From the NCBI GenBank assembly GCA_001899085.1, contig MKVB01000002.1, forward strand, positions 138,421 to 202,420: 64,000 nt of DNA, in the 5' to 3' direction. Position 1 is the stretch's first letter. Every line of letters begins with the position of its first letter. The notes beneath the pieces are model-generated. The model saw only the letters and a program-made list of their open reading frames with translations. It was not told the DNA's origin and searched no databases. Of the stretch, positions 22,564-25,054 are shown in pieces. The stretch comes from Devosia sp. 66-14 (lineage in GTDB: Bacteria > Pseudomonadota > Alphaproteobacteria > Rhizobiales > Devosiaceae). The translations under genes and the position numbers were made by a program.

Positions 22564-22678
22564 AGAGCACCCCCACCCCTGTCCCCTCTCCGCAAGGGGG
22601 AGGGAGACGCTCTCACTGATGCTGGTGTTTTGGTCTCCTCCCCCTTTGCGGGGAGGGACAGGGTGGGGGGTGTTCTTT
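22564..22678. repeat. Long inverted repeat (family B) between lldD and the synthetase-like gene
   Basis: Arms of about 47 bases (22564-22610 and 22632-22678) pair imperfectly around a 21-base loop. Shared blocks are CACCCCC, CTGTCCC and CCGCAA-GGGGGAGG. Each arm also contains a short internal hairpin around CGCAA. It fills a convergent gap. Confidence 0.8.
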
Positions 22679-22729
22679 CTGAACTGAGCTATCCCATGCG
22701 GACGGGGCAAGCTCCCCGCCCGCACGGCA

Positions 22730-23494
22730 TCACGCCGTGAGCGCCGCTTCGCGCTCGTCGGCGATCGACCAGTTGTAGATGCAGCGGTCGAGCCCGATGG
22801 CGATCTCGACCACCAGCACGTCGATCTCACGCGTTCCGCCCTTGCCGGTCACCACGGCCCGCTGCGGAAAATCGGTGCGACGGGAGATGGAGGCGACCTC
22901 CATCCATTTGTCGCCATTGTCGACCTCGACATCCATGGTGATCTCGGAATAGGCCGGCAGCCGGTCCGAGGGCACGATGCGGGTCGGCAGGCGGGTCACC
23001 GCGGCGATCATCCGGCGCACCGGTTCGAGCACCGCCGCGTGGTAGTCGTTGGCGGTGTCGGCGGCGTAGGCGCACTGGAACTCCATCTGCCAGAACTCCT
23101 TGAGCCGGACATGCCGGGTCGACTGGTCCTGCTCGCGGCGGAACGATTTGCCGGCCTGCCAGACGCAGAACGGCAGCCGGGTCCTGGCGTGGGTGTTGAG
23201 CTGGTGCGTCATGTAGACATAGGTCGAGGGCGTCGTCTCGGGCCTGAGCACCAGTTCCCGGTCGGTGTCGGAACTGCGCTGCTGCACGTAGATATCGTCG
23301 GGGCCATAGGCCGGCGAGATCAGCTCGCGCGGGGTCAGGATCGGCGCTTCGACGCGGCGGATGTCCCAGGCGGGGTTGATCGAGCGGAGGAGGAGGGTGA
23401 CCTCGGCCGAAATGTAGGAAATAGCGCTGTCGCGCAGGCGGATTTCGCGCTCGTTCCAGTGGACGAGCCCGTTGGCGTCATAAAGGGAAAGCAT
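22730..23494 (-). CDS. Stand-alone class II aminoacyl-tRNA-synthetase-like catalytic domain (glycyl/threonyl-type), function unknown
   Basis: The 254-residue protein is only the catalytic core of a class II synthetase. A motif 1-like strand is at DIRRVEAPILTP (about residue 44). Motif 2 is clear as SFRREQDQSTRHVRLKEFWQ (about residues 117-136, FRxE...R-x-K/R-EF), closest in pattern to glycyl-tRNA synthetase. Motif 3 appears as VVEIAIGLDRCIYN near the C-terminus. Anticodon-binding and editing domains are absent, so it is probably not a housekeeping synthetase. It may activate an amino acid for transfer to something other than, or to a variant of, tRNA. It lies alone between a long inverted repeat and a strongly structured leader. 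Confidence 0.7.
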   Translation of the reverse strand: MLSLYDANGLVHWNEREIRLRDSAISYISAEVTLLLRSINPAWDIRRVEAPILTPRELISPAYGPDDIYVQQRSSDTDRELVLRPETTPSTYVYMTHQLNTHARTRLPFCVWQAGKSFRREQDQSTRHVRLKEFWQMEFQCAYAADTANDYHAAVLEPVRRMIAAVTRLPTRIVPSDRLPAYSEITMDVEVDNGDKWMEVASISRRTDFPQRAVVTGKGGTREIDVLVVEIAIGLDRCIYNWSIADEREAALTA

Positions 23495-23515
23495 GCTGCT
23501 CTCTCGTTCTCAAAG

Positions 23516-23603
23516 GGTATCGGGATGTGGTTCGGGCTTTACGTCTCCGGCGGGCGGAGACGGCGCATGCCGAACCCCGCGTCTAGCCGAAGACGCCGAT
23601 ACC
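23516..23603 (-). ncRNA. Candidate structured leader RNA (three-way junction) upstream of the synthetase-like gene
   Basis: Four perfect helices can form within 88 bases. P1 is GGTATCGG (23516-23523) with CCGATACC (23596-23603). P2 is GGTTCGG (23529-23535) with CCGAACC (23570-23576). P3 is CGTCTCCG (23542-23549) with CGGAGACG (23555-23562). P4 is CGTCT (23580-23584) with AGACG (23591-23595). P1 closes a junction from which P2/P3 and P4 emerge. It ends 21 bases before the start codon of the minus-strand gene, so it would be in its 5' leader. I know of no named RNA family it matches. No T-run suggests a terminator, so translational control is more likely if it is an RNA. Confidence 0.45.
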
Positions 23604-23712
23604 TCGACGACCGGCGCCACGAAGCGCGGCCGGAACGATGGATGCAGCAATGTTCGCGAGCGTGAACATGGGCGCGAACCTATGCGAGGCCGCGCCGCGG
23701 CGCAAGTCGGGT

Positions 23713-24531
23713 TCAGGTGCCCCAGGCCGCGCCGGTTCCCCCGTCGGGGCGCCAGGTGAGCTGCTGGTAGACCTTCTTGGCCACGGCCTGCATCTGGGCT
23801 TCAGGCAGGTCGCCGACCACGGTGCAGGTGATCTTGTCGTTGGCCCAGTAGAAGGCGTCGAGATTGTCGCGCGCCGTGAATTCCCGGTCGGTCCGCCGAT
23901 CGGGCAGCGCCGCGGTAATGTAGACGGTCACCCGCTCCTGCGCGGCGTTCTCGTACATCAGCTGCGCGGCCGGGCCAGTGGGTTGCTCACCGTAGCCGGG
24001 CAGCAGCCGGCCCCCTACCAGGGTGAAGCCGTCGGGCGCCAGGTCGGGTGGGGTGATCGGGCGTTCGACCCGGTTCGACAGCCAGGACACCAGGTGGTCC
24101 TTGTCGGCGGCCGCGACCTCGACGGCGTGGCGGTTCTCCTTTACGTAGAGGGCGTGGGCGCTGACCGCCGAAGCGATCAGTTCCTGCCGCTCGCTGGGCT
24201 TGAGGTAATCGCGTCCGGCCCAGCCCAGGGCGCCACCGAGCGCCAGCATCACCACTGCCGCCGCCGCCAGCTGCCAGCGCGCCGGGTGGCGCGTCGCGGC
24301 CGGAGAGCGGGCGATGAGATGCGGATCGAGCCGCGACGGCACGGTCTCGTCGGCGGTGCCGCCGAACAGCGCGGCAAGCGCTTCGTTCTGGCGCTGCCAA
24401 CCGGCCACTTCGGCCGCCTTGTCGGGATGCGCCGCCAGCCAGGTCTCGACTTCGGTGCGACGCTCGGGCGTCAGCTTGCCGTCGACAAAGGCATGCAGGT
24501 CGGTTTCGGAGATGGGGACGAGGTTCGTCAT
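23713..24531 (-). CDS. Membrane-anchored anti-sigma factor
   Basis: The 272-residue protein begins with an anti-sigma domain (SETDLHAFVDGKLTPERRTE, about residues 8-27). One transmembrane helix follows (about residues 92-113, WQLAAAAVVMLALGGALGWA), then a periplasmic domain of about 155 residues. No zinc-binding HxxxCxxC pattern is present in the cytoplasmic part. Its ATG overlaps the sigma gene stop by four bases (ATGA), the usual coupling for such pairs. The real start is 24531, although the frame is open further upstream. It should hold the partner sigma factor inactive at the membrane until an envelope or redox signal arrives. Confidence 0.85.
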   Translation of the reverse strand: MTNLVPISETDLHAFVDGKLTPERRTEVETWLAAHPDKAAEVAGWQRQNEALAALFGGTADETVPSRLDPHLIARSPAATRHPARWQLAAAAVVMLALGGALGWAGRDYLKPSERQELIASAVSAHALYVKENRHAVEVAAADKDHLVSWLSNRVERPITPPDLAPDGFTLVGGRLLPGYGEQPTGPAAQLMYENAAQERVTVYITAALPDRRTDREFTARDNLDAFYWANDKITCTVVGDLPEAQMQAVAKKVYQQLTWRPDGGTGAAWGT

Positions 24532-25034
24532 TTGACCGACCTCAATCTCGGTTCCTCGCCATTGCCGGTCAATGTGCGAAGCGCCGCACGGGCGCGACCG
24601 AGCCGCGACATCAGGGTGCCGGCGGGGATGCCGAGGACGCTCGCGGCATCCTGGTAGCTCATGCCTTCGAGCACCACCAGCAGCAGCGCTTCGCGCTGAT
24701 CGTCGGGCAGCCGGTCGATGGCGCGAGACATTTCGGCAAGGGCGATGCGGCCGGGTTGCGGCGCGGCGACCGCGGGTTCGGAAACGAGGCTGTCGATAGG
24801 AATGTGGTCTCCACGGCGGCGCTCGAAGCGAAGGTCGTTGCGCCACAGGTTGATGAGGATGCGGAACAGCCAGGCCTGTAGCGGCCCGGTGGGGGCGAAC
24901 AGGCTGCGCTTGCGGATGGCCCGTTCGAGGCAGTCCTGGACGAGATCGTCGGCACGGTCGGCGTTGCGGGTCAGCGCGCGCGCATAACGGCGCAACGCGG
25001 GAACCGTCGCCTCGATCTCATCCAGGAAGTCCAT
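24528..25034 (-). CDS. ECF-type RNA polymerase sigma factor
   Basis: A 168-residue group IV sigma factor with region 2 (RRYARALTRNADRADDLVQD ... LFRILINLWRNDLR) and region 4 (LPDDQREALLLVVLEGMSYQ, then SVLGIPAGTLMSRLGRARAA). Sigma regions 1 and 3 are lacking. It lies between the small secreted protein gene (20-base gap) and the anti-sigma gene (overlapping), so the three form one operon. ATG 25034 is the domain start. It probably drives its own operon, as ECF factors usually do. Confidence 0.9.
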   Translation of the reverse strand: MDFLDEIEATVPALRRYARALTRNADRADDLVQDCLERAIRKRSLFAPTGPLQAWLFRILINLWRNDLRFERRRGDHIPIDSLVSEPAVAAPQPGRIALAEMSRAIDRLPDDQREALLLVVLEGMSYQDAASVLGIPAGTLMSRLGRARAALRTLTGNGEEPRLRSVK

Positions 25035-25054
25035 GTAACGGTATGGGCGCCAGC

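Follow-up and report, generated by a model that had tools for sequence, protein, structure and literature searches.

Leader control of synthetase genes is familiar from thrS-type tRNA-mimic operators and from T-boxes. The leader described here differs from both in that it has no match in Rfam and no tRNA is recognised. The nearest published case, going by the passages of PMC8632094 that describe it, is the cysS motif uORFC-8-2 of Rhodobacterales, likewise an alphaproteobacterial uORF followed by hairpins in front of an aminoacyl-tRNA synthetase gene and read as ribosome-mediated attenuation. As set out in those passages, uORFC-8-2 carries Cys codons in tandem, and its intrinsic terminator includes a U-run, whereas the codons here are mixed Gly and Arg and no U-run is conserved; its target is cysS, whereas here it is a different, truncated synthetase-like gene. 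The trpL (rnTrpL) leader of Sinorhizobium meliloti, as portrayed in the relevant parts of PMC7298713 and PMC10117765, likewise combines a leader ORF at the 5' end with mutually exclusive structures and is leaderless, as the present transcript probably is; however, it has 14 codons, Trp codons and a terminator, whereas the present ORF has 28–35 codons and no terminator was found. The alphaproteobacterial odc1 (uORF-25-1) motif, again in the pertinent section of PMC8632094, likewise joins a structured RNA to a conserved short ORF, but that uORF starts two nt before the main start, whereas here the uORF ends ~90 nt before the gene. A description of this leader was not found in the literature searched. 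As an attenuator it would be of a known kind, but the family is new and the target unusual.

The leader lies in a 64,000-nt stretch of Devosia sp. 66-14 (henceforth referred to as 'the window'), in which a first-pass annotation made from the letters alone had placed an unnamed three-way-junction RNA at 23516–23603, in the leader of a synthetase-like gene. The attribution to this gene holds, as the element is kept at orthologues, single-copy and linked to the gene, and the gap of 21 bases between element and start codon is correct. The GlyRS-like gene (254 aa) is on the minus strand at 22730–23494, and the leader RNA is therefore the reverse complement of the letters at 23516–23603. We conclude that the leader element is real, conserved and gene-specific, and that it probably controls the GlyRS-like gene as a ribosome-mediated attenuator. 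The unnamed leader thereby gains a testable identity: a gene-specific switch with covarying arms, operated by translation, in soil- and plant-associated Alphaproteobacteria. The features to which we refer are, in window coordinates and all on the minus strand:

22730–23494, minus strand: GlyRS-like class II catalytic core, 254 aa, without anticodon-binding domain (Pfam, NCBIfam, PDB sequence and fold matches)
23499–23505, minus strand: Shine-Dalgarno-like GAGAGAG (sequence)
23509–23536, minus strand: C-rich, G-poor segment, lying between arm B and the Shine-Dalgarno sequence (composition compared with random segments)
23516–23523, minus strand: P1 3' arm, CCGAUACC (fold)
23535–23541, minus strand: UAAAGCC, conserved, directly 3' of B, with AAA unpaired (alignment)
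23542–23550, minus strand: arm B, CCGGAGACG, whose partner is A or A' (alignment and shuffles)
23555–23562, minus strand: arm A', CGUCUCCG, the alternative partner of B (state 2, the P3 of the first-pass annotation; masking and shuffles)
23570–23576, minus strand: P2 5' arm, GGUUCGG, partner 23529–23535 (state 2; fold)
23583–23669, minus strand: leader ORF, 28 codons, MFTLANIAASIVPAALRGAGRRGIGVFG, stop TAG at 23583–23585, probably leaderless (sequence and orthologue comparison)
23587–23595, minus strand: arm A, CGUCUUCGG, last leader codons, pairs with B (state 1; fold and alignment)
23596–23603, minus strand: P1 5' arm, GGUAUCGG, within the leader ORF, partner 23516–23523 (fold)
23677–23682, minus strand: -10-like box TAGGTT, 17 nt from the -35-like box and 7 nt before the leader ATG (comparison of leaders)
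23700–23705, minus strand: -35-like box TTGCGC, TTGACA in most Rhizobium orthologues (comparison of 71 leaders; weak in the window)

The leader reading frame

A search of the GTDB collection yielded 70 orthologous loci, which are full length or nearly so apart from two fragments (L082 and L083) and a Rhizobium hainanense locus (L043:3001-3747), in which the synthetase-like frame stops at codon 102 and the match runs on, reflecting either a broken gene or a sequencing error. From Devosia, Mesorhizobium, Rhizobium, Shinella, Phenylobacterium and others we extracted 71 leaders (70 distinct), and in all 71 a related sequence precedes the gene. A leader ORF enters the element from upstream, its final codons making up the element's 5' half and its stop codon falling inside; this ORF was found in 71/71 leaders (the window's included). 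It spans 28–35 codons, and 26 in a Rhizobium tropici strain (L072:2877-3003) in which an in-frame TGA, a natural nonsense change from CGA at leader codon -7, shortens it; this mutation offers a ready-made test of the leader peptide. The peptide ends mostly in G-R-G-L-R-V-x-x-stop, and in R-R-G-I/M-G-V-F-G in Devosia.

Promoter-like boxes, chosen by score, precede the leader ORF in 70/70 distinct leaders, with the pattern TTGAC(A)-N17-TAGNNN or weaker and then an ATG mostly 6–8 nt on; scores of such level occur in 0.4–4.8% of random windows from the same loci, depending on the clade. The 17-nt spacing is favoured by the tie-breaking used, and under the opposite tie-breaking it is 17 in 68/70. 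A strict sigma-70 scan of the window gave no match to the window's own boxes. In 66/70 leaders the first ATG past the boxes shares its frame with the leader stop, and in the other four an ATG lies 0–2 nt after the box; in-frame stops occur in 1/70 leaders in the leader frame versus 15/70 and 27/70 in the other frames. Because the boxes mostly lie 6–8 nt before the leader ATG, the leader transcript is probably leaderless, and we infer from these sequences that transcription would begin at the leader AUG or very close to it, as it does for Sinorhizobium trpL.

Amino-acid constraint is confined to leader codons -12 to -5, where pN/pS was 0.40–0.78 in six of seven clade comparisons (0.50 within Rhizobium, 0.40 within the Mesorhizobium type, 0.72 within the Devosia type, and 0.48, 0.62 and 0.78 between clades) and 1.69 within Phenylobacterium. 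Values for codons -27 to -13 were 0.87–1.29, and those in arm A, where computable, were 0.79–4.5, with changes that track pairing. In 47 leaders compared over 33 codons, among them one stray Phenylobacterium row, variation is the same at the three codon positions (entropy 0.59, 0.58 and 0.55), so that the leader taken whole does not look coding. This pattern, which is not alone proof of coding, would fit a leader that matters more for being translated than for the peptide it yields. The last 12 codons hold, by clade, 2.5–5.4 Gly and 2.4–2.9 Arg, and the first 200 codons of the gene are 2–3% Gly and 9% Arg. The Gly codons are interspersed with Arg codons, none in tandem, and some Rhizobium leaders have two Gly only. 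In an attenuator such codons would be a clue to the amino acid and tRNA of the enzyme.

The same leader and hairpins could instead serve an arrest-peptide sensor, in which the nascent ...F-G-G-R-G-L-R-V together with a small molecule or antibiotic, and not uncharged tRNA, stalls the ribosome. Residues -12 to -5 are indeed conserved between Phenylobacterium and Rhizobium (the comparison with pN/pS 0.48), and a drug-stalled uORF with an Arg-Leu-Arg motif has been proposed before hflX in the part of PMC8632094 that deals with it. However, part of the conservation is at the nucleotide level (CGAGGU is present in 70/71 leaders, and GUC is kept in arm A) and comes at least partly from pairing, and the Devosia ending shows that the motif is not strict. 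We therefore regard an arrest peptide as rather unlikely, although it fares best among the alternatives to an attenuator that reads tRNA charging.

Competing hairpins around arm B

The first-pass annotation described four perfect helices of 8, 7, 8 and 5 bp within 88 bases: P1 (23516-23523/23596-23603), P2 (23529-23535/23570-23576), P3 (23542-23549/23555-23562) and P4 (23579-23583/23592-23596). The complementary arms do exist at these places, but P1 with 8 bp and P4 with 5 bp both claim base 23596, so that the four helices cannot form together at these lengths, and folding the 88 bases into the junction required the loss of one P1 pair. On the gene strand the minimum-energy fold consists of P1 and a helix A:B with inner hairpins (-43.8 kcal/mol), and the three-way junction (-39.8 kcal/mol) is 4 kcal/mol less stable; the ensemble is mixed, the longer window leader giving A:B a probability of 0.50. 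The plus strand folds best as the junction (-44.4 kcal/mol). Folds of both strands are stable beyond chance, with z -3.6 and 2/200 shuffles equally stable on the gene strand, and z -2.8 and 1/200 on the plus strand. Since A:B is conserved across the aligned clades, the orthologues decide more than energy does: the conserved helix is A:B, which is built from the 5' arm of P4 and the 3' arm of P3 and is not among P1–P4, so that the three-way junction is not supported as the conserved fold and is at most an alternative state of the element in Devosia.

Helix A:B was recovered unaided by RNAalifold from 32 leaders. Arm B lies ~32 bases past the leader stop, and the GCC of the UAAAGCC that follows it pairs with the GGU of leader codon -6 (CGA GGU); across the 32 aligned leaders, 95.4% of the 416 cells of A:B plus GGU:GCC are paired. 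The covariation score of this extended helix was 0.381 versus 0.027–0.235 in slid versions and was reached by 0/500 shuffles, and cells with double changes numbered 62 versus 26.5 in shuffles. Not above shuffles were the number of pairs with double changes (five, reached by 496/500 shuffles) and that of further pair types (191/500). The variable pairs, 4–8, each changed state at least 3–5 times on the gene tree (24 leaders), while Rhizobium-type rows carry mismatches at pair 5 (19/49) and pair 8 (41/49).

The second hairpin pairs B with A', which sits after the leader stop codon. With A masked, B pairs with the post-stop segment above shuffles (≤6/100) in 18/20 leaders of the Devosia, Phenylobacterium and Rhizobium types, L027 and L052 being the two that fail, and in 0/4 leaders of the Mesorhizobium type. 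When all clades are placed in one alignment, A':B (that is, P3) is 68.8% paired, with one slid control showing higher covariation, and P2 is 56.7% paired; neither appears convincing in such an alignment, and the support for A':B therefore comes from the per-leader shuffles. Thus, mutually exclusive hairpins, one of which uses the last codons of the leader, are found as A:B versus A':B in three of the four clades. Among the eight leaders of the Devosia type, double changes affect one pair of P1 (an Ile/Met codon difference answered on the opposite strand; 55/500 shuffles reach the cell count) and two pairs of P2 (67/500), whereas P3 and P4 are nearly invariant and, with hardly any variation, are neither supported nor excluded. 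The covariation among orthologues that the first-pass annotation had proposed as its check is thus borne out for the element as a whole, in A:B, and not clearly above shuffles for P1 and P2.

The internal loop of A:B (GGU-N4 / AAA-GCC) might itself bind the synthetase-like protein, a tRNA or a small molecule, in which case the RNA would be autoregulatory or ligand-binding and the ORF incidental. Synthetase genes are hosts of tRNA-mimic operators, the AAA 3' of B is nearly invariant and unpaired, the CGUC:GACG pairs of A:B are invariant, and the leader as a whole gives no coding-like codon-position signal. Against this, the reading frame, the promoter spacing and the in-frame ATG are conserved, the 5' side of the loop differs between clades, ARAGORN recognises no tRNA gene in the window and Rfam gave no match. 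The first-pass annotation had likewise recognised no known family, and Rfam agrees: no match to the element was obtained at gathering scores over the whole window, none at E up to 1 over 23400-23800, and at E up to 1 over seven orthologue loci there were four matches, none of them in leaders. An RNA that senses a ligand by itself is not supported, given that the element's 5' half is taken up by the last part of a leader ORF, before whose ATG promoter-like boxes lie, and we judge this alternative improbable, more so than the arrest peptide.

Proposed switch and its output step

Since a leader ORF and two competing hairpins are kept before the same gene in relatives, the element is most likely a peptide-coding leader switch worked by translating ribosomes and not a free-standing riboswitch. 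In such a switch the transcript would start at or very near the leader AUG. A ribosome held at the Gly/Arg codons before A (...G-R-G..., the CGA-GGU pair) or at the stop codon would cover A, so that B would pair with A' or stay free; if the leader is translated fast and vacated, or is untranslated, A:B would form. A:B is most likely the OFF form, so that slow decoding (low charged tRNA, most plausibly Gly) would raise expression of the synthetase-like gene. The last step may be control at the level of transcription, perhaps via Rho at the C-rich segment.

We looked for the output step in several ways. No terminator-like site was found at 23400-23800; a conserved U-run is absent, the longest T run being ≤3 in 64/71 leaders, and at least five T within 7 nt after B occur in 7/71, so that the leaders do not show an intrinsic terminator of the uORFC-8-2 type, with a stem and then a U-run. 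Masking by the ribosome changes the partner of B, and in a thermodynamic model the predicted access of the Shine-Dalgarno sequence shifts by ≤0.14 with ribosome position in each clade; simple masking of this site was rejected, as its predicted access is hardly altered. The segment between B and the Shine-Dalgarno sequence (23509..23536 in the window) is C-rich and G-poor in all four clades, with C minus G above that of random segments from the same locus (empirical p < 0.05) in 51/56 leaders counted, and by its composition would suit Rho. A consistent exposure of this segment by a ribosome at the stop codon was also considered and rejected, as its direction differs between and within clades: up in 6/7 and down in 1/7 of the Devosia type, up in 6/9 of the Phenylobacterium type, up in 14/45 and down in 9/45 of the Rhizobium type, and down in 4/5 of the Mesorhizobium type. 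Three leaders (L055, L065 and L067) carry insertions of ~48–92 nt, palindromic by eye, between arm B and the gene, with the element intact and B at 99–143 nt from the gene instead of ~50; this displacement makes it slightly less likely that control depends on a set spacing from the ribosome site. The C-rich segment, the near-constant Shine-Dalgarno access and the variable distance from B to the gene together lead us to favour slightly, as a guess, transcription-level control, perhaps by Rho on the C-rich segment, over Shine-Dalgarno masking.

Linkage to the gene and its phage relatives

The gene is present in 4/19 genomes of its genus and in 8/397 genomes of its order (the window counted and a ninth, weak partial match excluded), and a covariance model found the element in 3/297 genomes of the order. 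The element is single-copy in its genome, both by sequence and by covariance model, and lies directly before the gene in 10/11 gene-bearing genomes, the exception being a distant homologue in G542. A candidate second leader in G338 (E 0.04) was rejected, as it lies over an unrelated long open frame. The copy on a Devosia neptuniae plasmid, which was outside the model's input, scored 57.7 bits. The first-pass annotation had raised the prospect that the sequence might be scattered beside unrelated genes; a mobile palindromic repeat, or a chance fold before the gene, is scarcely credible and is ruled out, despite the GC-rich inverted repeat nearby, by the single copy, the gene linkage and the strong covariation of A:B. 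That repeat (22567-22690) is long and imperfect by eye, in the convergent gap downstream of the gene, and a sequence resembling it adjoins the gene at L003. Apparent anti-sigma factor and ECF sigma factor genes, named by eye, lie directly upstream on the same strand (23713-25036), and on the D. neptuniae plasmid (L116:5061-6724) the gene adjoins a HipA-domain/HTH pair. An operon partner was sought by crude ORF clustering within 3 kb (18 largest clusters), in which no gene common to the clades was seen, so that leader and gene behave as a unit; one reverse-strand cluster is present in 38 loci, many of its members overlapping the gene itself.

The 254-aa protein has a class II core domain by Pfam and no room for an anticodon-binding domain. 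No curated GlyRS model matched at its cut-off, the best being NCBIfam PRK04173 at 69.3 bits versus 312, while PDB sequences and the fold (structure model with mean pLDDT 85.4) both indicate GlyRS. All 27 aligned proteins share the motif-like segments R-P-E-T-T-P, R-R-E and G-L-D-R without change, which makes catalysis plausible. Apart from the window's gene and L084, one homologue search gave weak matches, mostly to frames of 450–550 aa taken as ordinary synthetases. L084 itself lacks the leader; this homologue, 53% identical, comes from an alphaproteobacterial genome of 1.0 Mb, whose small size suggests that the host is an endosymbiont.

The gene family is found mostly in jumbo phages. Homologues turned up in 21 phage records, with at least 80% of the query covered in 19, and in 103 viral stretches; 80 of these stretches were retained. 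In a midpoint-rooted tree of 97 proteins, made without outgroup, the leader-bearing bacteria form one clade inside the phage sequences (support 0.89), and the clade of these bacteria with viral L145, L129 and L122 has a support of 0.999. The leader was found at 0/40 of the phage loci searched (of 80 viral loci), and at none of L117-L121. The simplest history would be that the gene was captured from a jumbo phage and that the leader was acquired in the bacteria. No study of a single-domain synthetase-like family common to jumbo phages and bacteria, and no account of phage synthetase-tRNA pairing, was found in the literature searched.

A tRNA lies within ~1.5 kb of the gene at 29/73 distinct phage loci. 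At 8/73 a tRNA with anticodon CUA lies 50–1110 nt upstream of the synthetase-like gene (viral contigs L132, L133, L134, L135, L136, L138 and L139, and Sinorhizobium phage Phosso, L117:4594-4669), and long frames holding TAG occur at 8/8 of these loci and at 1/3 other loci examined; tRNA and gene may possibly form a synthetase-tRNA pair. An amber tRNA was also sought in the gene-bearing bacterial genomes and rejected, as a narrow, self-made pattern was absent from 12/12. The wider scenario would be that Alphaproteobacteria adopted a minimal jumbo-phage synthetase and brought it under the control of a leaderless attenuator that senses how far the enzyme's own tRNA is charged, the phage relatives being dedicated synthetase-tRNA pairs with one branch using an amber-reading (CUA) tRNA. 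We regard this scenario as speculative and unlikely as a whole; if true, the phages would have a naturally orthogonal pair that is distinct from the pyrrolysine system. At L121 a tRNA-like sequence absent from the ARAGORN output was seen by eye ~20 nt before the gene. At this and other phage loci (L118:3893-3980, L144, L145, L159, L162, L163, L168 and L171) the gene lies ≤120 nt from tRNA genes, and the tRNA kinds near these copies are Ser, Arg, Gly, Glu, Val and Thr.
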